A DNA stretch of 64,000 bases from Echinostoma caproni (Eukaryota > Platyhelminthes > Trematoda > Plagiorchiida > Echinostomatidae): the NCBI GenBank assembly GCA_900618425.1, contig UZAN01039383.1:128557-192556 (forward strand), given 5' to 3'. Position numbers and translations under genes: made by a program. Shown here in pieces: positions 16,884 to 55,500 of the stretch. Position 1 is the stretch's first letter. Each line of letters opens with the position of its first letter. Below the pieces are notes generated by a model that ran no database searches, was not told the origin of the DNA, and was given only the letters and a program-made list of their open reading frames with translations.

Positions 16884-17269
16884 GTGAAGATATTAAGCAA
16901 TTTTGGGTATTTCCGTTCCTCCTCCCTGCTTTTATGAAGTCAAACGCGAACACTAGGGGGATTGATTCCAAAACGTCCATCATTACCACTTTCTGTACAG
17001 AACTCAACAGGAGAAAACTGTCACATCCAGATAAAGTAGATCATGCCGTTCCAGTAATTGTGTGGTTTTTCAATTTACTTGTATCCCATTTACACTACAA
17101 CAGCAGATTTATCGTTGTCTGAAAATTGCAGTTCATACAGTGAAAAGATGGTCTCCCTCACTTGTTGGCTCAAAAGTGATTATCGCATGCTCAACCGCAC
17201 GTATATACAAGGAATTCAAAGCTCGGTTGAACCAATCGCTTTAAGGGAACAATGTGGCTTTCAAGGGTA

Positions 17270-17420
17270 TCTAGCTTGGAATAATCCATCCGGTTGTTCA
17301 CAGGGATACAGATAGTGAGTACTGCTGACGAGCCACGAACAGGAAGCAATAGCTGTCCAGTACCATCAGTCGGTCATCACAAATCTTTCCTCGATTACGA
17401 ATGTGGCTTTCATGTGCAAT
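17270..17420 (+). mobile_element. Degenerate SINE with hammerhead remnant (copy B)
   Basis: The central part (17319-17363) aligns with the hammerhead cassette of the other SINE copies, ending agctgtccagtacc. The tRNA-like head is not clearly recognisable, so the 5' limit is approximate. It overlaps no firm gene. Confidence 0.55.
17319..17363 (+). ncRNA. Hammerhead ribozyme motif, broken (copy B)
   Basis: Stem I is GTACTG with CAGTAC, perfectly paired, and differs from copy A at one base on each strand in a compensatory way. The first core strand CTGACGA is intact, the only intact one in the window. Stem II is lost, and the second core strand reads GCAA instead of GAAA. The cleavage triplet GTC is present. 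Not expected to cleave. Confidence 0.6.
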
Positions 17421-22013: not shown

Positions 22014-23124
22014 ATTTCATCAAGTCCTACGATATCTGGTACCTCCTCAAACGAAAATTGGTTACAGTTTTCTGAAATGTGTCACGGCGATCAAAAGCGA
22101 ATTAAATCATTCGCAAATAACTTCGGTTCTGAGATTATTTTCAATGATATAAGCAGGATGAATTTGCTGTTTAATAAATTTGTGCCATTGATCAAAAAGT
22201 TTGAGGCTTGGTAGAAATTAAAATAATTCCAATCCCGCTCATCGTTCACCTCCATCTGAATTCACTGTCCTGTCCACGTTTGGATTAAAGACAAACATGG
22301 TACTTAATAGTACAATCCTGCATAATAAGCTAACTTTGATACAATGCATAAGACTGTGCTCAGTAATCATTGGGGAACACTTCTTAGTATCCCATGTTTG
22401 CTGTGTATACATAAATACCTCCAGTTTAACTGCTCACGAATACATCATTTAATTCAATGAGGTACTGGTCCCATGTGGTCTCACTGTCTTCTTACAATTA
22501 GATTTCGTGAAAACAATTTAAAAGCTGTTAAATGGTGATGGTGAAATAATTTGCTTAGCTCGTGAGATGGATTCCGGTAGATTATACCGATACTATTCGT
22601 AGAATTCGTCCTACATGCTTCCCAGTTTTATCACAATTATCCGTAAGCGTTTTGGGTAGTTCAGCCTAGAAACAACTGGATTATTAGTTTTGGCCTACCA
22701 AATCAGCCGCTTGTGTGACCGTTGGATAGAGACGCAGGAGACATCGATTCTTGGGTACAAATCTCATCGAAATCTTTCATAGTTAACTATGTTTAAACTT
22801 ATGAGTCTCGGGAACTGACGCAAAGAAGCTGTGTAACTGTTTGTCATTCGACAGTGCTGTTTATTGCACTGGAATGTACCATGATGAAAATATACGTAGA
22901 TAAATCCGGAACACACGCAAGCATGACAAGATGTTCATGCTGTATTCCCCGAAGATACAAAACTCGAGCGCTGCGGGAATTTAAGTGTCATCATGTTCCA
23001 TTCTGAAAGATGGTTGCTTCAGTAAGCGGAGAAAAGCTTATAACAATGCATGCCCTATGTTTATCCGTTCGATTAGTCTAAAATTGACAACTGAATCCGA
23101 AATGCGATGGCAATGTTTGTAACC

Positions 23125-23272
23125 GACAAAGAGCACTGGACAGCTGTTTCGTCCTGTTTGGCACTCGTTAGCAGTGCGTACTTTTTGTGTCCCTGTCAGG
23201 ATTAGAACCGCGAACTTTCAGGTTGGGACTTCCAACCCCTACCACTGAGTTACACGGTAGATGGTCAACGCC
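23125..23272 (-). mobile_element. tRNA-derived SINE with hammerhead cassette (copy A)
   Basis: Reading on the minus strand, a tRNA-like head has an A box (taactcagtggtagggg, 23236-23252) and a B box (ggttctaatcctg, 23197-23209). It is followed by a hammerhead-like cassette and a short tail. It is the most intact copy in the window. The head supplies a probable internal RNA polymerase III promoter, as in tRNA-derived SINEs generally. No protein is encoded; mobilisation would need a LINE partner. Confidence 0.8.
23133..23177 (-). ncRNA. Hammerhead ribozyme motif, type I, degenerate core (copy A)
   Basis: Stem I is a perfect 6-bp pairing, GCACTG with CAGTGC. The first core strand is CTAACGA where the hammerhead needs CTGANGA, a change at the invariant G. 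Stem II is GTGC with GGAC around an AAACA-type loop (one mismatch). The second core strand GAAA is intact. Stem III is only two base pairs (AC with GT) closed by AGCT, and the cleavage triplet GTC is intact. The arrangement matches the Schistosoma Sm-alpha hammerhead; this copy is probably inactive because of the core change. Confidence 0.75.
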
Positions 23273-25315
23273 TTGTGCGAAAGGCTCTTCATGGATCATC
23301 AAGAGTGCCTGGTGCCTTTTAATAATCGAATGGGCTAATCCAGGCTGGCTACTCTGAATCCGAAATAAACTAAATTGTTTTTTGTTCTGTCACATGCAGG
23401 AGTGTAACGCTTGCAGTACTAGTCCCTCAAATGCAATGTGATCACAACAATACCCTTTTAGGATTTATTGCCTAACAGGAGTACCCAAGGATAAAGGAGT
23501 AGTTTTGAAAGCTGCAATTATGCACCAACTCCGTGGTTAGGGCACATCTTGATAAAACCAATTGCTGTGAACCACCTGAAAAGGGTTTGATAACTGTATC
23601 AGGGTGAAGAGACGGCCGGTCTGGTCTGCGTTCTATATATTATTCCTTCACGTATCTGTCTCATCACTGTGCAAACCATCTCCACAATCAGCTCCATCGG
23701 ACTTCTAACGATTTTCGAACAGTAAGCCAAAGTACGGGCTCAGGTGCTTTCCCATGTCGTTCAAGAAGGCAACAGTTGATTAGCTACAGTGATGTTTTAC
23801 GCGTGGATAAACAACTGGCGCCAGGTTAATTAGACCGACAGAATATGCAGTATCTATTGGTGACAAAAATCATCCCTTAGAATTCCCTGATCGGGATGAC
23901 AAAGTACCCAATTAAGCACCCACCTGTTGTTTCAACTTGTTTTATATGAAACAGTTAGACTGAAAGGCTTCTGTGATTTTGGATTATGTATGTACATATA
24001 GATGCATATGTATGTGTATGTCATACATAACAGTCTTATTAATACGAGATCCAGAAGGGTTCGGTAGTCACTCCAGGAAACTTCTGCTCTCCTGATGAAT
24101 CAGTTTCCGGTTCTATTTCCCAGTAAGTACACATTTCGAGCCACAATTTAGGAGGAACTGTAGGCACACATATTACGACGAAATGCAATTGCGAAGTAAG
24201 TTCTCCGGTTGGCAAATGTGATTCAAACCAGTTTTGACATGGGTCTGTAAATGTATTTCTCGTGAAAATGACTTCATACTACTAATCACTTCCGTCCAGT
24301 TTGAACTACATTCGACTTGGCCTACAGTTCCGGTCGACAGAAGAGAAATCAAATCGGAACATCACATTTGAAAATGCACCTGCACAGCCTCGGATAACAC
24401 ACGGGTTCATCTACAGACTTACTGAGTTCATGCATGTGCTGTCAACCGTACTTATATTGATTGCGAATGTGGTACAATGATGTGCTTCTAATCCTCATTT
24501 TAGGCTCAAGTGATTGATGCGTATCTGAAACTTTTTAGATAATTTCTTTTGCAAACGGGAAACTTCTTTCCATGAATAAACCAAGAACCTGGTTTATTTT
24601 TTCAAGAAATTTATGTTTCTCGTTTCACTTTAGCAGAAACAAAAATAAAATGAATAATGCTCACTCCGTCGTGGTTTACAGTAGTTGAGCACTATTTCAC
24701 CTATTCACCTCACTTGGCAATTCATTCACCTAGAGATTTTCTGTACTTCTCCGCAAACAAACCAATGAATTAGTAATTCAACTCGGATAGTCACGTACTT
24801 GAATTAACACTGGTTGGAATAACTTGAACCAACTCAGGTATCAAAAATATGCCTCAGGTATTTGACTAAGAATGTATGCGTAGTTTGCGCTTTTCATCAG
24901 CGCATATGCTCCCTTTGATAGAGGTAAACTTTTATTGTGGTTTACTTTTTAAATGCGCATGTGAAAAGACTCATTTTTATCGGGTTAGATCACCGCTGTA
25001 AGAATGAGACAATTGAATGGTTTGCCGAAATACATCAGACCGACCAAATTCACAGAAATGCAATTCAATAAACCAGGCTCCAGTATTCAGACAGCATTTA
25101 TCATATTATTGTAAAATACTACACTTAAGCTGTTGCCTGAAAATGGTCGGTGCGTAGACCGGGTCTCATAAGCAGAATGACAACACACATGCATTACTGC
25201 ATCCTGTTTGTGCTAGAAAGTAAAAATACTGAGTTCAGCCAAGATAATGATTGATTAAATTTAGTCCCGGTCATTTTCTTCACTAAAGAATCCACATGTG
25301 TAAATGGTGACTTAC

Positions 25316-28300
25316 TTGATAATGTGATTGCTGTCCTTCAAGCACCGTAAACTCATACGAGGTCATGTTGAACTGAGGCGCACAGTCATTAACATCTTCC
25401 ACACTGATGATGACAAACATGTGAGATTTGAAAGCAGTTCTCGGCCTATCCGGCGGAACATTCAACATTTGTTCTCCACTCTCCGTCACCGGACTGTATG
25501 CTTCCACGGTACAATTAATGAGATCCAACGATTCGCGATCGAAAATCACTTCGTTGAAAATTTCACCGGTTATTTTATCAATTGAAATCAAGGGTTTGTC
25601 GGGTGAGACCAAAGCAGTCACTTCCGGCCGTTTCAAGTTGGGTTGTGATGGTGTATAGACTTGACCAATAATTCTGTAGGCCACGCGTGCGTTTTCTCCA
25701 ATATCGGCATCTGTGGCTTGGACTCGTGTAATCAAAGTGTGCGGTGGCTGTCCCTCTTTTATGGTTACTCGATGTACAGAGTTTTCNAGAGTTTTCGAAT
25801 TGCGGTGGCGAATCGTCGATGTCCTCCACACGGACAAAGAACCGCAATTCGGACGATAGTGGTGGAGTTCCCGCGTCCCAGCACTCGATTCGCACTGAAT
25901 GTGACTCCAAAGTTTCGCGATCTAGTACTTTTCTTAAAATGAGTTTGAACTCCGTGGCAGAGGTTACCGTTAAGGGACGAATTACAAATTGTTCATGATT
26001 GGTAAAACACTGAGGGCGACCGCTTACGCGTCCTGGGCTGGTATTTAGTAACTCTTCTTCTTCCGACCCGTAATTCAGTGGCTTGTCTGGATCTAACACA
26101 TTAATCATGGCCACAATAGAGTCTGCTGGTGTGTCTTCCGCAATCCATAGTTGATCACCTGTGTTGGACATGCGCAAATGGGAACTGATCGAAATTACAA
26201 ATTGTTCATGATTGGTAAAACACTGAGGGCGACCGCTTACGCGTCCTGGGCTGGTATTTAGTAACTCTTCTTCTTCCGACCCGTAATTCAGTGGCTTGTC
26301 TGGATCTAACACATTAATCATGGCCACAATAGAGTCTGCTGGTGTGTCTTCCGCAATCCATAGTTGATCACCTGTGTTGGACATGCGCAAATGGGAACTG
26401 ATCGAAATTTTTGGCGGTTGTGTGTTAACTGGAGTCAACTGAACTGTCAGTATGGCTTCAGCTTGGTGCAAACGGTCACTAACTTGTATGGGAATTATGT
26501 AACCGAATATGGGAGATTGTCCGGTGTAATGTGAGACTGATTTGGGACTAGAATCGGGCAGAAGAGAGGCGTTTGGAAAGAACAATCGGTTCCGGATGTA
26601 CACTTCCCCGGTGGATTGGTTGATTGCAAAGCAACGAAGTACTTCCGAATTGGCGGAACTGCTAATTTTATAAATCAGCGCATTTCGATCGATCACATCT
26701 GCATCGCGTGCCACAGCCTGGTAGATANNNNNNNNNNNNNNNNNNNNNNNNNNNNNNNNNNNNNNNNNNNNNNNNNNNNNNNNNNNNNNNNNNNNNNNNN
26801 NNNNNNNNNNNNNNNNNNNNNNNNNNNNNNNNNNNNNNNNNNNNNNNNNNNNNNNNNNNNNNNNNNNNNNNNNNNNNNNNNNNNNNNNNNNNNNNNNNNN
26901 NNNNNNNNNNNNNNNNNNNNNNNNNNNNNNNNNNNNNNNNNNNNNNNNNNNNNNNNNNNNNNNNNNNNNNNNNNNNNNNNNNNNNNNNNNNNNNNNNNNN
27001 NNNNNNNNNNNNNNNNNNNNNNNNNNNNNNNNNNNNNNNNNNNNNNNNNNNNNNNNNNNNNNNNNNNNNNNNNNNNNNNNNNNNNNNNNNNNNNNNNNNN
27101 NGCCACAGCCTGGTAGATAATTGTTCCCAATTTAGTATTTTCTGCCACAGTCACTGTGGGTTTTGTGTCCACAAATACCGGTGGCTGATCGTTCGTGTCC
27201 AATACGATCACTTTGATCGTTAGGGTACCTGTGTGACGTGTCCTGTATGAAACACCAACGGTTTCACTGCCAACCACGGGCAGAGGCCATAAAGGAGATG
27301 ATTCAAATTCCTCCAGCCCGTCAGTGGCTATCAAAATGAGGTAGTGTATCGCCTGCTTTTCTCGATCCAAATCACTATCTACGCGCAAATTTAACTTGAA
27401 CTTTGGACCCAACAGGGCCGTATTATCAACCACTTGACTTTCTAGGCTGAACAAGTAGGAGTTTTGTTGTGCTGGAATCTGCAAACCGTATGATCCGATG
27501 GATTCCCGATCGGGACACTGGACGCAACGCACTTGGGAGGTTTGTGGGTTATAAACAGCTGGAAATAAACGATAACTGACCACTGTGTTGGCCGGTTCTT
27601 GATCGGGATCAGTGGCCTCTGGAAGTTTGTATAATGATCCAATTGGAACGTGTTCGGGGATTTCCAGATCCAATACTGGTTGAGACCATCTGGGTGGATT
27701 ATCGTTCACGTCAACTATGTACACGACGATCTCGATTAGTTGTTCTGAACTGGGATTCTGAAGCACAAGCATGCGAAGAAAGCAGTTCAGAAATACAGGT
27801 TCTGGTAATTTTGAATTCTGTACAGCTCGAAATTGCGGCCGCATTGTGTTGCTCTCATCCATATTATGGACGCTGGATGCACAACATGTTCCCACATCGC
27901 GACACAAAGACTCACGATCAATACGTGACTGAACAAACAAATCTCCGCTTGTCCCATTCAAACCAAGATATTTATTCGACTTTAATTCTAGTAGTTGTGC
28001 ACCAGAGGCAAAACCACGTTTTATGGGTGCATTCGTATTTTGGAGACTATGCAATACATTACCGATCCTCGTACCAATCGGTGTTTCCTCCGTCAAAACG
28101 AATGTCACACGAAGTGCTTCGGTTGAGCCGGAATGAAATGTTCTTCCCGGATCGGACTGCTGCTGCGGATCTGGTCTAACGCAGGAAGGAAAAGAAAGCA
28201 CAATAATCCAGAATATCACAGATAGCCAGGAAGTTGGTGAAGCGAGATTAACTAATTCATGACAAACCAATCCATCCTGAGAGTACTGTTTTTCACTTGA

Positions 28301-28318
28301 TCCACGTCTACTGACCAT
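25316..28318 (-). CDS. Protocadherin-like adhesion protein, 5' large exon (partial, with assembly scars)
   Basis: Encodes the N-terminal ectodomain of a calcium-dependent adhesion protein of the protocadherin type. The start is the first in-frame ATG (28318) after an in-frame TAG; no other ATG lies between. Residues 31-46 form a hydrophobic signal segment after an unusually long polar N-terminus. Ectodomain repeats, read from their inter-repeat calcium motifs: EC1 about 69-209 (DRE at 134-136, ends DVNDNPP), EC2 about 210-380 (ends DTNDQPP), EC3 (starts near TVTVAENTKLGT, has ARDAD, ends PVNTQPP with the acidic residues lost), EC4 (LDRE, ends DIDDSPP), EC5 (ATDADIGENARVAY, FDRES, ends DVNDCAP), and the first strand of EC6. 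The exon ends at 25316 before a GTAAGT donor. The N gap at 26728-27101, the N at 25787 and the 213-bp duplication interrupt the frame or domain order as assembled and look like assembly faults. The transmembrane and cytoplasmic exons were not found. Family call is certain; orthology is not. Confidence 0.93.
25778..25796. other. Single N flanked by 9-bp duplication; frameshift scar in the cadherin exon
   Basis: The nine bases agagttttc stand on both sides of one N. The ten extra bases (nine plus N) shift the frame, so the frame upstream ends shortly after DIDDSPPQFENS and the downstream frame resumes with ENSVHRVTIKEG. Removing the ten bases gives QFENSVHRVTIKEG, a normal start of EC5. This looks like a contig-merge artefact rather than a real mutation. 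Confidence 0.85.
25980..26406. repeat. Perfect 213-bp in-frame tandem duplication within cadherin repeat EC4
   Basis: The block 25981-26193 is repeated without any difference at 26194-26406. The period is 213 bases, or 71 codons, so the frame is kept. It doubles the first part of EC4, from about ISISSHLRMSN to NHEQFV, without forming a complete extra repeat. Perfect identity at both silent and replacement sites means it is either very recent or an assembly duplication; other scars nearby favour the latter. Confidence 0.95.
26728..27101. other. Assembly gap (374 N), probably spurious
   Basis: A run of 374 N inside the protocadherin exon. The 18 bases on each side are identical (26710-26727 and 27102-27119). 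Overlapping those ends gives an uninterrupted reading YQAVARDADVIDRN across the junction, exactly the A-x-D-x-D calcium motif expected at that place in EC3. The gap is therefore best read as two contigs that overlap and were not joined. Confidence 0.9.
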
Positions 28319-28330
28319 CTCGGTTCTATA

Positions 28331-28360
28331 CAATCCCAAATCTAAATTCAGCCATGCTGA
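28331..28360 (-). promoter_or_regulatory. Short upstream ORF in the protocadherin 5' leader
   Basis: An ATG about 42 bases ahead of the chosen protocadherin start opens a nine-codon frame (MAEFRFGIV) that ends at TAG just before the main ATG, in a different frame. If the leader is unspliced here, this upstream frame could lower initiation at the main start. Seen in sequence; the regulatory role is inference. Confidence 0.25.
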
Positions 28361-31300
28361 CCGTTTGATAAAATGTGAAGGGAAATTGCTCCTTCGTAAG
28401 AGGACCTATATGAAATACCCTCCATCTGTTCAATGGCCGGTACTGGATGAAATTCCCATGGACCGGAAAGTTTCTGTCTTGCACTGGACCAATCAAAATT
28501 CAGGTGCAATCTGATTGGTTTATCCTATCTAAACACGAGACGAACCAACACGCTTCGGAATATTTAGAACATGGATGTGTTTGATGCTCCAAATTTACAC
28601 TCTTTGTTTTTAAAAGATGATTGCAGTATTAATGTTACGGTTCCACAAGACGGTGCCTGATCGACGATTGTTGTTTATTACAGAATACAGTTCAGATATC
28701 GATAATATGGCATACATAAAGCAGGATATCTCATTTTAAACATGTCATCACGATTACCGGCAGCACGCAGGGTAATGAATGGAACAGTCGGTAGTTATTA
28801 TCTGGAGCAAAGTAAATCGTTTTAAATGGTCTTATTCATTTTTGACCGTTGAAAGAAACCGCCAATTGCATTATTCTGAATACTGCTCGTAAATGTGAGT
28901 AGTACCTCACACCACTGGTAGCACACTGTTATTGCACAATCAGGTCAATGATCCGTTATTCTGCAAATGAATGTGCCCGGGATTGCGATAATCAGATTCA
29001 TTCGACATGTAAAGTTTGAAGTTAGATTGCTTCAGGTTAAGGATAACAATGCGACTATGCAGAATTAAATTTAACTGTCAGCCAACCGTGCCATGAGTTC
29101 TGACATGAAAACTCCTCAAAAGTGACATGATACCAAAATCGGTTTTTGAACGTTTGGTTCTCGAGACAAAAACAAAACGAATGATGAAGGAAATTGCATA
29201 AGGGTAGTTATATACTGGCTCGTAATAACTTGCATGTAGCCATGACACCGTTTGCCAACAGTGTTTTTTTTTGCTTTTGGTTTGTTTCCTAAAGAATAAA
29301 ACTATGCATGACAAGATGTTTCATTGAAATCAATGAGATTCAAAAATTCTGTAAGCTTTCTGATAACCGACATTTTCTAAGTAAGTTTGATTTTAAAATT
29401 CTCGATGGGATATATATATATATATACATGATTCATAAATATATGAAATCTTTTAGTACAGCGGAAATAATGATGTAATACCCAGCTTGTTTCAGATATT
29501 TGAGGCTCTCTGACTAACCACAGTAAAACACTATAATCAGTGTAATAATATAAATAATAAAAATAATAATACTGGCAATGGAATTTGAAGAAGTAACTAC
29601 GTTTCGTTTGGTATGATGACCCTAATAGATTATTGCACGACAACAACGCACAGAACGATAATCGGGTCATAGTAACCAAAGGATAAAATGAACTTACTTG
29701 AGCAAGATCCTACTGGTGCTGGACACATCATTACCGATTGACAGCAGGCCTTAAATAATTGCACAACTATGTTTTTTCTTCAATAAAAATTCAAATACAC
29801 TTCAATTTTATCGATCAATGTAATTCCGGATGGTTCAACTCCCCCTTAGATCTCTTTCTATAAAACGAACCCAAATATTTTATGGTAGACTACCTAAAAC
29901 GGGATCGTTTGTAAGTTAAAAATAGGATTTCATTGATAATAAAATTGTTTCGGTCAATCCTACAATATTTGGTGGCACTACCTGGATCACAAGCATATCA
30001 AAATCATTTCCCCTGTATGTGGTTCAAAATTGTTGTGAGAGACCATTGAATATAATATTGTTTACTGGTTTGTTTTATCAATAGGAGTAAAAGCCACCTG
30101 AGAGTCCATTTTATTTGAATAACACTGAAAGTTGTCATACGGTGGTTGTCTGCGTTTTGTTAAATTTTCTATCTGTTCTTTAACCAAATTGTCATGCTGG
30201 GTATTAAAAGCATAGGGTAGATCGTAGGACCGAACAAAATGCAACAATAAAATTTCAAACAAGACCAAACTAGCAATTTTCTAATTTTATTCCATTCGTT
30301 GAGTAAAATAACTGAGAAATTATTTGAGAGAACAATATCCTCCATGGTTACTGGAATGTTTGACTAATTTTGTTCTTTCCGTGAACACTGACCCCATTCT
30401 CACCATTTGTGTTGCTCTAGGTAATTGTAACCTCAGTTGCTACGTAACAAAGTTATACAAAAATGAGTTGCGTTCCTGTCCCACATTTTTACTTAAGATG
30501 CCTGGATTTGCCTACAGTGTTGTGAGTTCTCGATTCAATATTCCCGGAGATTGGGTTTGGCAGAAACGGAATTCAAGATTGTATCATGTGATTATGAATG
30601 CTATTCGCGATTAGCGTTCGAAAGCAACAACTTGATGAGAACGAGGGGATCGCAATCTGCGCGAATAGTAAGTTCCAATTTACTTATCTGCTGTGACGAC
30701 AAAAGAATATATTAACTCATTCCGCTAGATTTTCATTCTGTGCTTTCTTGATGAAGAAAATTGGGCAAAGGTGGATTATGCGTGATCGATTTGGTGTATT
30801 CCGCTTGGCAGTAGATTTTTTCTACGTGTAAAATGCATTCGTTCTGGTAATGATGAGTTGTAAAGTTACAAATCAAGTGAACTCAATTATTGGTTCAGAA
30901 ATAAACTTTTCCGTTTTCCTTCTTAGTAATTGAATTTTGTCAGATTTTCAGTATATTTTTTCATTATTTAGAGATTTGTTTACACCAATTAGGTGACCTC
31001 TTCATCAAGTGCAATTCTGGAAGAAACTTGAGTGATTCCTGCGATATTTCAGCGGAACATCCGGATTAAGGTTGATCTATATGCCACTACGTTGTACGAA
31101 AAATAATGGGCACATCAAGAATAACGTTTTGGATTTGAGAAAAAAACTAATTCCTAGTTAACCGAAAAGAGAGTCAATTGTCTGGCTCCAAAAGCATATA
31201 CCTAAGTAGTCCTGGCTGGTTCATGTAGGCGAAATTAAATTCGTTCTAAGATTTGGTAAATATTGTTCACTGGCTGCTCAAATACTGTTTGTCAGTCAAT

Positions 31301-31639: not shown

Positions 31640-32400
31640 ACCAAAATGTGGAGGAAGGTACCATATCCTGGATATTATGAAACCCTGCATGAAGCTCTCG
31701 ACGCGGCTTACCGATGGTCAATTTTATTGACATGGAATACAACGTTGAGAAATTCAAGTTTATACTGCTGCGCCACATGAGTCGCTTTCCATACTTATTT
31801 GGAAATAAGCACTTACCGCGTTCGCCAAATGAAATTGACCTGGGAACTATCGTTCGTGAGGATCCACGATGTTCCACACTTTGCGCAAGACCATAAAACA
31901 CGTTCCATTGCTAAAACGTGTTTTTGATCATTCGAAACAGACCTATTGCCCCGTTTACGATCAGCATACGTAAGACCACACACCGAGTGTGCTATACAGA
32001 CTCGGAATCCATAGCTGATTTGCGACCAAAAGACACCCAAACGTCCGCAGAGAACAGCAACCAAAATGGTTAAACGATTAAAATCTAAGACCTACGGTGG
32101 AAGGTTGCGAATTATCGGACTCTATACGTCTGAATACTGTCGAATACGGGGAGGCGTGATCCTCGTATATCAAATACTACATCAACCTAACTACCCGTGT
32201 AGTACTCCACAAACACTATCCAGGAATGTTCACATCCGAGGACATCCGTTTAAAAGTTTGCTCCAAAAGAGTCGGCTAGACTGCAGGAGTTATCCTTTCA
32301 GCCTCAGAGTTTATAACACTTGGAACTCTCTTCCAATTCAAGTTGTTTGTGCACCAACCATCGATTCATTCAAGTCACGACCACGATGAAGCATTGAAAC
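31640..32400 (+). mobile_element. CR1-like LINE, 3' part of reverse transcriptase ORF, decayed
   Basis: Plus-strand pieces in shifting frames give LHEALDAAYRWS, then MEYNVEKFKF, LPRSPNEIDLGTIVRED, then RSAYVRPHTECAIQTRNP, and finally RTATKMVKRLKSKTY, IRGGVILVYQILHQPNY and SLRVYNTWNSLPIQVV. This is the order of the thumb and C-terminal region of CR1/Jockey-type LINE polymerases, including the VRP-x-x-E-x-A motif and the terminal W-N-x-L-P block. Frameshifts and stops make it non-functional; the 5' part is missing. Confidence 0.8.
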
Positions 32401-38499: not shown

Positions 38500-38998
38500 T
38501 CACACCCGGTCAAGGCAATTGGAACGTCTGAACCAGTCCTTTTGGGCACACAGGTTGGGGTCTAGTAAGCGAACAGTGATCGCCTCAGCCATAGGTGGTG
38601 TCCAAAGTCGGGCCGTCCTCGATCGATTGAGTGGGATGCGATACACAACATTGAAAGCTTTCTCCGGTTCGATCTTGTGCCCGGTGTCGACGAGATGCCC
38701 CACGATCACGGTTAAGATACGGCCGGTTTTGCCTTGACTTAACCATCGCGAGTGGTGCTCATTAGCGCGCTGAGACAAACGCCTTACCGTACAACCTATG
38801 TAATATAAAGGAGTAGTATAAATGAGTAAACTATCATGGATGAGTTCAGTCTCCGCAGTTTGTCCTTCACGTGTATTCGCATTACGGGGGTGATGCAGAG
38901 GACACTGGTTTAAGTTTGGCTGCGTGGAAAAAGGAATTTACAACCGCACTGAGTAACTGAATTGGGCTCTGTGTGTCTCCTTTAAATGGAATCCTTAA
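38500..38998 (-). mobile_element. Penelope-like retroelement fragment, GIY-YIG endonuclease domain
   Basis: On the minus strand a frame runs GQTAETELIHDSLLIYTTPL, then LYYIGCTVRRLSQRANEHH, then VGHLVDTGHKIEPEKAFNV and AEAITVRLLDPNLCAQK. YYIG, the arginine of RRLSQR, EHH and the late glutamate AEA are the expected landmarks of a GIY-YIG nuclease C-terminal to a Penelope-like reverse transcriptase. The polymerase itself is absent (5'-truncated). The domain is nearly intact and less decayed than the copy at 10.3 kb. Confidence 0.8.
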
Positions 38999-42600: not shown

Positions 42601-43654
42601 CCAGTTCATAAACATCTAACATTTATTACTATTAGGTACGGTAAACAAGGATACGTTTAGCTATCGAGAACTTACTTACATATATTATTAATATTTTGAT
42701 TGACATCAGGGCTAATGAAATTCAACGGAAATCCTAATATTGTATTTTCAATAAATTAATTTGGATTTTATTGGTTGGTAATTAACACATGAATCTAATC
42801 GAACATGAATTAACACAAAATACGCAAAAGTAGTAACCGATTGCTTCTATTTAAGCAATTAGGAAACATTTTCGAAAGATTCCTGTCAAACTGTCTGAGT
42901 GTAATTTCCAGAAACCTATGAGTTACAATTGTGTTTTGAGTCAAGACACTGTAGCATTGATAGTGTAGCTTTCAGAAGTGTTTTCGTATCAATGACTTGT
43001 GCTGGAACATTTTGACTAAAAGCGAAAATTGGATTATTCAGTGTAATGTTTGACTTGAATTAACACTGTGATTCAATGCTCCACTTTGAATGAATTGGTC
43101 GTGAGATTATCGGCTCCTTCTAGCTCACCTCGTTGCTATTTTTTTCTTTCTTTCACCCCATTTTTACAGAAAACATATAATGGAGATAAACTGTGTTCAT
43201 GAAGGATGAAGCACACAATCCAAGGGCTGCCACATGAGGTAGGTGGGGAAAGTTTAACAACTTTTGTGGTAAGATTCTGATATGCATCAATCAGGGCGAT
43301 AAGCTGGTGATCCTAATCACTTCACGACTGCTGTCTTGAAAGAGAATCACAATTACCCAATTTTCGTTGATCGTTTCTCAGTCGTTCTTGGTGTCACCTA
43401 TCGAATTGGTACAAATTCTCTTACCGTTTGCAGTGTGGATGGTTTTTATCCGGATCTTTCATCGTAACCCATGTGAGGCTCCATCTGATATATCATTTAT
43501 ATACCCTGGAGTTTTGACGCATCTGAGCAGTAAAGTTATGACGTTTCATGTTGAGAATATTAAACATTCAATAGCCTCGCTAAGCCTCTGTAGCCTCTCT
43601 CTGTAAGTTGGATGGGTAATTCGAATGTGAAAATATCGGAGCTATCGGTGTGGC

Positions 43655-43740
43655 CTCGTAGCTCAATTGCTAGAGCTTTCACTGCAAAAAGCGGAGGTGG
43701 CGTCCATGCGTGGGTTCGAATCCTAACTAGGCTACTACTG
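43655..43740 (+). mobile_element. tRNA-like SINE head
   Basis: Contains a good A box (tagctcaattgctagag), a paired D-arm (GCTC with GAGC) and a perfect B box (gggttcgaatcc). The acceptor stem has a mismatch and a wobble, and the anticodon stem is only about 3 bp around an 8-base loop. It is therefore a tRNA relic, most likely the head of a SINE of another subfamily, rather than a working tRNA gene. Confidence 0.5.
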
Positions 43741-51377: not shown

Positions 51378-51530
51378 TTGAAAGATTCGTTCGATCCCCA
51401 GTCGGGTCGATGGATACGCACTACCGGTGAGACCCAACCAGGTCGAAACAGCTGTCCAGTGCTTACTAGCTTTTTAGCTCACGCTTCATTTACTATATAC
51501 ACGACTAAGTTTCCCTTGGAAAATGTTTGA
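51378..51530 (+). mobile_element. SINE, 5'-truncated, with hammerhead cassette (copy C)
   Basis: Retains a B-box-like gttcgatcccca segment, the hammerhead cassette (51418-51462), and a tail (cacgcttcatttac) shared with the copy at 52.4 kb. The A box part of the tRNA head is missing or unrecognisable. Confidence 0.7.
51418..51462 (+). ncRNA. Hammerhead ribozyme motif, degenerate core (copy C)
   Basis: Stem II is perfect (GACC with GGTC), swapping a T-A pair of the presumed ancestor (GTCC with GGAC) for A-T. GAAA, the AC-AGCT-GT stem III and the GTC cleavage triplet are intact. Stem I is GCACTA with CAGTGC (one mismatch next to the core). The first core strand is CCGGTGA, two changes from CTGANGA. 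Probably inactive. Confidence 0.65.
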
Positions 51531-51812: not shown

Positions 51813-52235
51813 AGAAATGACGTTGTCAGAATGGGCGCCGTGCAAGAGTTAAACAGAAACCAGGTATTCTACCTTTAGCTAAACAAAAAACATTTATTCT
51901 GACGAGGATAATGATCATCCTCAAAAAGAGTAGTAAAAGCAGGTTTGATCACTTTAATTTCAAATCTTTGACCACCAATGCGTCGAAACTATCCTCCGGA
52001 AATTTCACAAACAAATGTAAGTTGATACACTCATCTCTAGTACAAACAACGGCAGTTTATTTAATGGAAACAATTGGTACGATATCTGAATAAACAAAGA
52101 GTAGGGTGATGCATTTAAAACGCATATCCTGGCGAAAAATCTGTATGACAGTAATTGGGTATTTTATTTGCTTATATGATGAATTCGTCGTATAAATCAG
52201 ACGTTACCTGAAAATCTGGGAGGCAATGAACAGCT

Positions 52236-52271
52236 CTTTTGGCCCAACCAGGTCGAAACCGTCGTTCAGTG
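52236..52271 (+). mobile_element. SINE hammerhead fragment (copy E)
   Basis: Only stem II (GGCC with GGTC), GAAA, a short stem III with loop CGTC, and cagtg of stem I remain. The first core strand and the tRNA head are absent. It lies about 120 bases before a fuller copy of the same family in the same orientation. Confidence 0.6.
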
Positions 52272-52394
52272 TAAGTTTCCAACCGAATATCAAACCTGAA
52301 GGCTAGTGCTGAGATGAATGAGAAACAATACTCACAACAAGCTGGCAAAGATGGGTGGTGCTATATATTCCAAATGAGCAGCGGTCTGATCAGA

Positions 52395-52565
52395 TGCCTG
52401 GTGGTCGAGTGGGTAGTATGCTTGCGTTCTATCTTTTAGGTTCCGAGTTCGATCCCTATTTGGATCGATGGATTCACACTGCTAATGAGGCCCAACCAGG
52501 TCGAAACAGCTGTCCAGTTCCTCCCAGTTTTTCAACACACGCCTCATTCACGCGACGAATTCGTT
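52395..52565 (+). mobile_element. tRNA-derived SINE with hammerhead cassette (copy D)
   Basis: Has a tRNA-like head beginning tggtggtcgagtgggta, a B box (gagttcgatccc, 52445-52456), the hammerhead cassette (52477-52519) and a tail. Its head closely matches the one at 1.75 kb. It is the most complete plus-strand member. Confidence 0.8.
52477..52519 (+). ncRNA. Hammerhead ribozyme motif, degenerate core (copy D)
   Basis: Stem I is reduced to CACTG against CAGTT (four pairs). The first core strand is CTAATGA, with the same G-to-A change as copy A. Stem II is GGCC with GGTC, fully paired with one G-T wobble. GAAA, stem III and the GTC triplet are intact. Probably inactive. Confidence 0.7.
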
Positions 52566-55500
52566 ATATGGAAAAATTATCAAATAAGGCTCACTTAAAG
52601 CGCCTTCGAAACTTCAACTTTTTCTTTAATTAAAAAAATTCTTATTGGTACTCTACATTAGGATACTATGGTGAAGTTCACGTATTTTATTTTTTTCTCA
52701 CATTCACTGTCTAGGTTATGGGAACCCTGAGTAAAGCACTTTTTCTCAAACCGAATGATGGGGACAGACTTTGTGTTAACCGAATTCTCTGCGTTTCATG
52801 TGAGTAAGAGAAAGAGAGATATATAAGAGAACTTTGGCTTCAGGATTCAAAGAAAATAAATGTCATTATGGTTTCTTGAGAAACAGTGGGTAAACCGTGG
52901 GCTTGGTATCCGCGTAACTAAGGGATCTTTCTAAACTCGGTGAATAAATGACCAATCGCTTTCGTTCGATATACACCTAATCTGACAACAACTTTCAAAT
53001 GTTTTCTTGATAATAAGCCCTTAATTATCGACCAAAAACTCTGATCATAATAATTTTTCAAACGTGACACCAAAAATATAGAAGCGAAGAACAAAAGGCC
53101 AAGACTGAAGATTATCACCTGCTTGGTTGCTTACGATAAACAACTATTGAAGCAGTCAGGAAAATCTGCTCTGCAGGAAATCTTTCAGTGGCCCTCAGTG
53201 AGGCTTTACGTTCCAGAAATTCTTCATGTTCGCCGTCACATGACTCTCGGTTATGGTAGCAGTGATGGTGGTAATGGCGGCGGCGGTTCTTTTTTCGAAA
53301 GATCTGTTTAAATTGACCACTACAAATAAAAGCAGCCTGAGATGTTTTGCAACATTCCTCAAACTATGACCCAGCCCTATGCCATATCGGTGTATTCCAC
53401 ACAACGAAGATATCCTTCGATATACTTTTGTTAATAAAGGAGTCTTCACGTACGCCCCCCCCCCTCCTTTTTAGGGTATTTGTAATCCTCACAACGAGCT
53501 CAGAATTGCATAATCAAACTATTTTGGACGTAGTGTAGGGTATCGGAATTCGTATTACAACAAAATAACTTTGTCGTCAACCGAGGTGAACACGAACTGT
53601 AATGAAGGAAATTCGATTTCTGATTCTGATTGAATTCGGTGTGACTTGTTTGACACAACCACCCTTCATGCGATCGACCCAGGTTCAAGTCCCCGAGGGC
53701 TGAGTGCACTACCAATAGGTTCGACATAAGGCAAAACTTTAGTTTATGATTCATTGAATGAGCTGAGGATTGTGNNNNNNNNNNNNNNNNNNNNNNNNNN
53801 NNNNNNNNNNNNNNNNNNNNNNNNNNNNNNNNNNNNNNNNNNNNNNNNNNNNNNNNNNNNNNNNNNNNNNNNNNNNNNNNNNNNNNNNNNNNNNNNNNNN
53901 NNNNNNNNNNNNNNNNNNNNNNNNNNNNNNNNNNNNNNNNNNNNNNNNNNNNNNNNNNNNNNNNNNNNNNNNNNNNNNNNNNNNNNNNNNNNNNNNNNNN
54001 NNNNNNNNNNNNNNNNNNNNNNNNNNNNNNNNNNNNNNNNNNNNNNNNNNNNNNNNNNNNNNNNNNNNNNNNNNNNNNNNNNNNNNNNNNNNNNNNNNNN
54101 NNNNNNNNNNNNNNNNNNNNNNNNNNNNNNNNNNNNNNNNNNNNNNNNNNNNNNNNNNNTTATGATTCATTGAATGAGCTGAGGATTGTGCGTGAAAACT
54201 GAAAACTTAGGGACGCAGAGTCCAGATCAATATACCGAACACCACTCCACTGTGCCAGTACGACTGAAATGAGAAATATGAAGGACTTTTCCGACCGGAA
54301 GCCTGGTTTGCAGTAAAAATTAAGCTTAAGTGAAGTCTCTTCGCGTTGTTTCGTTGTTCTACTCGTAAAATCTGAATTGTACAAGAACTCAACATGTAAA
54401 AGGTGTTGACTTACCCTTTAAAATGTACAGGAAAATTCCATTTGTTGTAACGGTATGATTAATGAGAATTCTCTTAAGCCAGTACTTTTGAGTTTAAGCT
54501 TTACTCATGTGTTTGTACNCTTGTTTTGCCAAGCAACTGGTTAGAACATCATACTTCACACTAAGACGAACTTTCAGTAGTTTATTCATCATTTGAATGT
54601 GCTGTTTATCTCGTTGACCGTCAATATTGCCTTTGAATGCAGACTTCCTTTGTCATAGTTTCGCGAAATTAAAGTGGCGAAACGTGCAATCCTTCAGTGT
54701 AGCGAAATTCATCAAATATTCAAGGTCAGTTTTACTCACAATTGGATTTGTATTTAGTCTCTATATTTTATTGCGAATAATCACCCATTTTTTAATTCTG
54801 TACATTTTGTGGAAAATCATGACAAACGGTTGAACAGTCATGGTTAAAGATATCGAGAATACTAGAGTGTGGCACCCAGGCAGCGTTTCGTTGATAAAAT
54901 ATTCATTTTGTCTATCAATTAAAGTGACATCCATTCGATCCTGGGTAAACTGAATAATGTCAGCAGTGCATAGTGCATCAGAAACAACTTGGATACTTCG
55001 AATGGGTTTTGCCCCAACGCAGCTGATGCGATCATTTAGCGAAATGGATGGGCTGTTTTTGAGGGGAATAGAAGTACAACATTCTGATCACAGTCAGCGG
55101 AATGGCTATTTCTACCAAGTGACAATGAAGTCAAAAAAGTGAACAATTTTTACAATTCCACACAGCCAAGGATAACCTTATTTAAATCCCAGTTTCCTTA
55201 TTAGGCCTCATTGTATACCACCTGTTAATACTTCCGTTGATCCCGATTGGACAACCCTGCTGTTAGTTTGCTTGTTAAGTCCTTAACGTGTTTGCTTGAT
55301 TTAGACCTGTATTTGTACACCAATGTCGTGAATTTCAACCGTTTCGATAAATCTTCCTTAATAACGTTAATTATTGTCAACACTTCCCAGAGGACTCGGT
55401 ATTCACCTGGACGTTCTCTTTATAAAAGACCTTGGGATCAGTTTTTATGAACTCAAATCCCTGGAAGTACTACGGATTAGTGCGATATTATTTTTGTATC

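Follow-up and report, generated by a model that had tools for sequence, protein, structure and literature searches.

What kind of mobile element is the short insertion that carries a hammerhead motif at positions 23133-23177 of the stretch of the Echinostoma caproni genome analyzed here (64,000 nucleotides, hereafter the window), and by what route could it have entered the genome? A preliminary description had placed a type I hammerhead at these positions, within a tRNA-derived SINE, and had spelled out the order and spacing of the ribozyme parts. In an Rfam search of the 64-kb window, RF00163 (Hammerhead_1) matches 23177-23133 on the minus strand over model positions 1-45 of 45 with 46.9 bits and an E-value of 6e-9 (the gathering score of this model is 34), so that the position is confirmed exactly and the strand is established as minus. 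The proposed arrangement is likewise found, namely stem I (GCACTG/CAGTGC), the core strand, stem II, GAAA, a stem III of the form AC-AGCT-GT, and the triplet GTC. Given the E-value and the 40 places in the genome that match the repeat (see below), the motif is beyond chance. The features of the insertion and its borders are as follows (for the boxes, the remnants were read against the exact boxes of the unit consensus).

23133-23177, minus strand: type I hammerhead, core CTAACGA (Rfam match of 46.9 bits, and family model R1)
23104-23353, minus strand: entire 250-bp insertion, consisting of a direct arm (head, hammerhead, end b) and a short inverted arm from end a
23091-23103: 13-bp target-site duplication, copy adjoining end b, CTGAATCCGAAAT
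23354-23366: 13-bp target-site duplication, copy adjoining end a, CTGAATCCGAAAT
23104-23287, minus strand: direct arm with end b, spanning unit positions 7 to about 197 (approximate, converted coordinates)
23294-23353, plus strand: inverted arm, from end a inward (approximate, converted coordinates)
23242-23252, minus strand: A-box remnant TAACTCAGTGG
23199-23209, minus strand: B-box remnant GGTTCTAATCC

The two 13-bp direct repeats that flank the insertion are perfect. In this copy (L001), the direct arm is plus 7>197 (188 nt) and the inverted arm minus 1>256 (66 nt), both lengths including a few bases of the duplication, and the pair of A and B boxes is not exact. Alignment to the family model R1 reveals CTAACGA in the core where the family has CTGACGA, as well as one broken pair in stem II; with these two changes the copy should not cleave, and judging by its sequence it is probably inactive. 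The CUGANGA core of type I hammerheads is thus lacking in the window copy and present in the family consensus, which displays all the hallmarks of this ribozyme type (CUGANGA, GAAA, NUH, three stems, and an open stem I).

The family was sampled from a genome of 426,516,399 bases in 12,689 contigs, with window positions 22900-23300 as the query; 40 of the 2650 first-look candidates were scored and all 40 places matched, the window copy being one of these loci. The loci were picked by likeness to the window copy, with complete bodies up to end b favoured. Their majority consensus is a unit of 320 nt with a G+C content of 48.4%, in which the hammerhead occupies positions 117-161, with cleavage predicted after 155, and reads GCACTG CTGACGA GTCC CAAACA GGAC GAAA CAGCT GTC CAGTGC. 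Both core strands that the preliminary description expected of a genuine family, CTGANGA (here CTGACGA) and GAAA, are present in the consensus of the 40 loci. Upstream of the hammerhead, at unit positions 42-95, the consensus contains exact matches, with starts 43 nt apart, to the motifs that we take to be those of the Pol III A and B boxes. Both boxes are exact in 20 of the 40 loci, and 100 mononucleotide shuffles of the window contain no such pair.

Accordingly, the central element of the original claim, a dispersed repeat that combines a type I hammerhead with a Pol III-type head, is supported by the consensus of the 40 loci, and the narrower labels fare less uniformly. The derivation of the head from a tRNA has the exact boxes of the unit consensus in its favour, but ARAGORN detects no tRNA in either the window or the family consensus, and the family head in locus L002 has no match to the Rfam tRNA model at E<=1; descent of the head from a tRNA is likely but putative. 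In Sm-alpha of S. mansoni, the head is tRNA-Gln-derived. The SINE reading holds insofar as the repeat is Pol III-headed, but the insertions are two-armed with fixed ends and not plain SINE copies. Tandem copies, which had been anticipated, are present as partial units with a period of 320 nt and unbroken plus stretches of at most 545 nt, but the 40 loci contain nothing beyond such partial tandems.

The core of the ribozyme is intact in 30 of 55 full-length instances, a count that took in 55 of the 62 hammerhead matches. The preliminary description had also supposed that a hammerhead with so short a stem III would be cleaved mainly as a dimer or tandem transcript, and this idea appears sensible in the light of the palindromic stem III and the computed folds. 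The sequence around stem III, ACAGCTGT, is a perfect palindrome; the 45-mer alone is predicted to form an inactive hairpin of -15.1 kcal/mol (-9.2 for the active fold, in which stem III has 2 bp), whereas two strands are predicted to form a double hammerhead of -34.3 kcal/mol, as against 2 x -15.1 for the inactive monomers. Such a double hammerhead agrees with the dimer mechanism described for the hammerheads of newt and viroid RNAs in the accessible part of the respective account (PMC6155905). For the 45-mer and for the circular unit alike, the minimum-energy fold differs from the active hammerhead, which counts against the explanation favoured below. A contact between stem I loops is not claimed, as a hand-written stem I extension scores only -2.4 kcal/mol.

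Covariation was assessed in an alignment of 39 typed distinct 45-mers that left out six instances with insertions, the copy at 17321, and duplicates. Seven of the 14 stem pairs in these 39 hammerheads show two-sided changes, compared with 1.2 in shuffled and 2-5 in slid versions; as the Rfam consensus row accounts for six of these seven and the subfamily of the copy at 51418 for the remaining one, the stems covary between families and not demonstrably within the family. Conservation of the ribozyme within the family was dropped as evidence, given that it decays like its surroundings (region means of divergence 0.036-0.073 for the ribozyme, 0.040 and 0.065 for the flanks).

The anatomy of the insertions is more telling with regard to their origin. 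The typical build consists of a duplication, the minus strand from unit position 320 (end a, TTTAGAGTATC), a switch, the plus strand up to end b (about unit 196-206, CATCGCATTTAAAT), and the second duplication. Among 68 outer ends that are of the 3' type relative to the RNA, 34 lie near a, 30 near b, and 4 elsewhere, so that 64 of 68 fall within stretches for which uniformly distributed ends would give 17.5%, these stretches (16 nt for a, 11 nt for b) having been set after the ends were seen. Where both sides of a locus have an a or b end (25 loci), the combination is a/b in 23, a/a in 2 and b/b in none (P ~1e-5 if both ends are drawn with equal chance), with a/a copies probably under-counted owing to the selection of loci by likeness to the window copy. 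The other 15 of the 40 loci are not two-ended and combine a free 5' end with a (6 loci) or with b (5) or follow other patterns (4). Across the 23 a/b loci, the a arm measures 26-373 nt and the b arm 69-370 nt, and the switch points vary along the unit from locus to locus; at the junction, the arms overlap by 1-12 nt in 13 loci, abut in 2, and are separated by gaps of 1-24 nt in 8 (raw counts).

Loci L016 and L039 contain unbroken plus stretches that pass through a to b, or through b to a. Given this read-through, a and b appear to be internal sites at which copying of a multimeric or circular RNA began, unless two RNA species have their 3' ends there. Repeated positions within a locus, compared in the 31 of the 40 loci that have at least 20 of them, share 90 of 590 variant sites, as against 5.0% between loci, and in L016 all 124 of 124 repeated positions are identical. 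Within-locus identity exceeds between-locus identity in 22 of these 31 loci, equals it in 1, and falls below it in 8, a count that speaks against the favoured explanation. The shared variants are compatible with a scenario in which a single RNA, or near-identical units, were copied and the copies then decayed. Two palindromes, GCATTTAAATGC (192-203) and CAAGCTTG (303-310), coincide with the ends or lie close to them, but the length of the former is in itself unremarkable since a palindrome of at least 12 arises in 62 of 1000 shuffles.

Exact 13-bp duplications are found in 7 of the 40 loci, and two further loci have 12 and 11 exact bases. When left and right flanks from different loci were paired 200 times as a control, the best score was 10. 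This value is exceeded in 11 of the 40 loci, one of which (L018, with its second cluster set aside in the scoring) represents an internal repeat, leaving 10 of 40. With L014, the exact duplication of which was missed by the score and found in the tally of exact duplications, 11 loci have supported duplications, and the remaining 29 of 40 have none above the control, which, like the 15 loci that are not two-ended, weighs against the favoured explanation. Ten of the 11 are a/b by the automatic labels, including L017 in the opposite orientation; L014 is labelled 5'/b automatically, its a end having been identified by eye. In young copies, the duplications abut the fixed ends. A target-site motif is weak, with an AT content at 13 sites of 0.716 for the duplication and 0.686 for the flanks, compared with 0.613 for the window.

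The window contains further members of this and related groups. The family model R1 has four strong matches, with E-values from 1.1e-22 to 5.9e-11, at 23133-23177 (minus), 51418-51462 (plus), 52476-52520 (plus) and 17319-17363 (plus), along with a weak one at 52233-52272 (E 0.087); the training alignment of R1 contained the copies at 23133 and 51418, which therefore match by construction, and not those at 52476 and 17319. A second match to Rfam Hammerhead_1 coincides with 51418-51462 (36.7 bits). These additional features are the following.

17264-17399, plus strand: second insertion, of like build to 23104-23353, with its hammerhead at 17319-17363
51418-51462, plus strand: hammerhead with a broken core, from a second subfamily (loop CAACCA, stem II GACC/GGTC)
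52476-52520, plus strand: hammerhead with core CTAATGA, likewise from the second subfamily (stem II GGCC/GGTC)

The insertion at 17264-17399 has a perfect 13-bp duplication at 17251-17263 and 17400-17412, and its a and b ends were identified by eye; it has no Pol III head, the direct arm beginning just 5' of the ribozyme. The second subfamily (51418, 52476) appears by eye to have a different head, with a GAGTTCGATCCC-like B box, and 52174-52244 and 52499-52569 form arms that are inverted repeats of each other at 75%. A tRNA-like element free of hammerhead matches, with inverted arms that are 75% identical over 585 aligned positions, is found in L002 (93-645); it has a weak match to the Rfam tRNA model (22 bits) and a relative at window positions 43599-43736 (plus), with exact A and B boxes at 43659. 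Fold-back copies may thus extend beyond the hammerhead family.

Several coding remnants lie nearby. The protocadherin-like exon at 25283-28405 (minus) is broken by a run of N; its segment 26693-28405 (minus), a cadherin exon, is 67% identical to a protein of Fasciolopsis buski and then 44-46% identical to proteins of Paragonimus, with no schistosome among the matches listed (the best 120 of 1581). The 124-aa open reading frame at 32015-32389 (plus) resembles by eye the end of a non-LTR retrotransposon protein and has no Pfam match. The fragment 38500-38937 (minus) is 72-74% identical to three E. caproni proteins named reverse transcriptase or transposase; by eye it looks like the GIY-YIG end of a Penelope-like element, an assignment that Pfam and PDB sequence searches did not confirm. 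The nearest proteins of the cadherin exon and of this fragment place the host among digenean flukes, probably near echinostomes and fasciolids.

Taking these observations together, we consider it reasonably probable, although well short of assured, that the window insertion is a dead copy of a non-autonomous, retrozyme-like retroposon with a Pol III-headed unit of 320 nt that spread by two-ended priming of the Penelope type. Under this scheme, transcripts exceeding one unit would be cut by the hammerhead, best as a dimer via the palindromic stem III, to yield RNA of unit length, probably circular, or multimeric RNA. A Penelope-like reverse transcriptase-endonuclease would then cut the target with a 13-bp stagger, and both target 3' ends would prime on the RNA, one at the internal site a and the other at b; the two cDNAs would be joined at their meeting point, the outcome being two arms flanked by 13-bp duplications, the inverted one starting at a and the direct one ending at b. 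The involvement of a Penelope-like enzyme as the motor is suggested by analogy, from the inverted, tailed anatomy and the two-strand, internally primed chemistry of these elements, and the cleavage, the circles and the two-ended priming are likewise presumed steps. The strictest version, an ordered entry in which a single ribozyme circle gives rise to cDNAs from a and b that are joined into inverted a/b dimers across a 13-bp stagger, is put forward tentatively, as possible rather than probable.

One competing view is that the element is the fluke version of the SINE-like Sm-alpha and Sj-alpha repeats and nothing more, its inverted arms being incidental. It draws on the shared ribozyme type, the Pol III-type head, the match of stem II to the Rfam consensus, and the similar unit length (320 compared with 335 bp in the Sm-alpha-like W-element W36.2; PMC8490949), yet the present family as a rule has arms that are inverted and fixed at their outer ends (23 of the 25 loci with two ends), and such a build is absent from the published Sm-alpha descriptions in their accessible parts; we grant this view a minor share of the probability. 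LINE-driven twin priming, which we regard as unlikely, would have the LINE enzyme start at the RNA 3' end (b) and the second strand prime internally (a). Twin priming yields an inverted 5' part and target duplications, as observed here; one fixed 3' end combined with an internal site would yield a/b pairing, and LINE-like open reading frames are seemingly present (window 32015-32389, by eye). This mechanism is at odds with the fixation of both outer ends, with the absence of a poly(A) or simple-repeat tail at b, and with the existence of plus-sense ends at a (6 of 40 loci with a free 5' end, and the 2 a/a loci); given these plus-sense ends and the reads that pass b, b cannot be the sole 3' end of the RNA.

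Self-priming (snap-back) of a single cDNA or RNA, a mechanism put forward for rotifer Penelope elements in 2013, would explain why palindromes lie at or near the ends, and head-to-head repeats with palindromes were so interpreted by the authors of that proposal, as far as the accessible part of the paper goes (PMC3846280). Simple snap-back, however, should produce like ends (a/a), whereas 23 of 25 are a/b; moreover, the switch points are scattered along the unit and a palindrome of the observed length is unremarkable in view of the shuffles. Self-priming is therefore improbable, and as the sole cause it is ruled out by ends that are a/b instead of a/a. Least probable by our estimate, and in effect discarded, is a MITE or fold-back DNA transposon, or tandem copies that were inverted afterwards: inverted arms together with short duplications of the target would be expected of such events, but the outer ends a and b are dissimilar, the arm lengths differ between copies, and a later inversion would not leave duplications that abut the fixed ends of young copies.

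If the ordered two-ended entry is true, the insertions would constitute a genomic record of how ribozyme circles return to the genomes of animals, with Penelope-like enzymes acting in trans and, in this case, an additional Pol III promoter. Penelope-like elements are already named candidates for the movers of animal hammerhead elements, a candidacy that, in the accessible text of these sources, derives from shared hammerheads, tandem occurrence, and co-occurrence with retrozymes (PMC7229834; PMC7761336). Ends fixed at a and b, the a/b pairing, and a stagger of 13 bp provide specific, countable signatures that can be compared with each Penelope and LINE family in this genome and with a purified enzyme, so that the mobilization of animal hammerhead elements becomes countable. 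Should the link hold, the family would be a small non-coding genomic counterpart of the two-strand, internally started priming of Penelope-like proteins (as described in part in PMC11167929), with a bearing on which enzyme returns retrozymes, and perhaps Sm-alpha-like elements, to animal genomes.

Comparison with known systems brings out the composite character of the element. The accessible sections of the two Penelope papers describe the following: in rotifer Penelope elements, such as that of Adineta vaga, an inverted pLTR completes the insert, with an optional 31-bp tail at one of the inverted pLTRs, frequent palindromes, and duplications of 8-10 bp (PMC3846280); the purified protein of the Penelope-like element Poseidon of Anolis cuts and extends both target strands, and reverse transcription starts at two internal sites, the interval between which equals the tail, on an RNA that has a hammerhead, the cleavage of which is unnecessary in vitro (PMC11167929). 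The fluke element resembles Penelope-like elements, as far as these sources describe them, in its hammerhead, its partial tandems, the inverted stretch at one end, the one-sided tail, the target duplications, the palindromes near the ends, and the internal start sites (PMC11167929; PMC3846280). Thus, the inverted stretch, one-sided tail and target duplication expected of a non-autonomous Penelope-like element are all found, but the lengths differ: the interval from b to a is about 120 nt in the fluke element, compared with 30-40 nt for the Penelope tail, and the duplication is 13 bp, compared with 8-10 bp in rotifer Penelope (PMC3846280, accessible part). Furthermore, the Penelope-like protein is described as using an equal start site on both target strands (PMC11167929, accessible part), whereas the fluke element has two different sites. 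These discrepancies, like the dispensability of hammerhead cleavage in vitro, weigh against the favoured explanation. Unlike Penelope-like elements, the fluke unit encodes no protein and has a Pol III-type head.

Animal retrozymes, according to the accessible part of the main account, measure 170-400 nt, carry a type I hammerhead, give rise to RNA circles, and presumably rely on Penelope-like elements for their spread (PMC7229834; PMC7761336). The fluke element agrees with these metazoan non-LTR retrozymes in size (320 compared with 170-400 nt), the type I hammerhead, a G+C content below 50%, duplications longer than 4 bp, and partial tandems (PMC7229834), so that the genomic features by which metazoan retrozymes are recognized, including the tandem tendency, are found in it. 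Exact Pol III boxes set it apart from them, as do insertions in which two arms of inverted orientation lie between fixed ends: the main text of that account never uses the word "inverted" (PMC7229834), and no two-armed a/b insertions are reported for Sm-alpha or retrozymes in the listed titles and abstract beginnings, a body of literature that is mostly without subscription papers.

The hammerheads of newt satellite 2 and viroids are alike in that a short stem III is lengthened by the dimer (PMC6155905, accessible part), the ribozyme mechanism being the only common feature as far as these systems were compared. In Schistosoma, Sm-alpha and Sj-alpha are described, in the accessible text, as SINE-like elements with hammerheads (PMC2770079; PMC8490949), and the fluke family is similar to them in being a SINE-like repeat with a type I hammerhead and a unit close to that of W36.2 in length (PMC8490949). 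It belongs to a fluke lineage other than Schistosoma, and two-sided changes separate its stems I and III from those of the Rfam consensus. The fluke element joins parts like those of Sm-alpha, the size of a retrozyme, and an insertion anatomy like that of Penelope.
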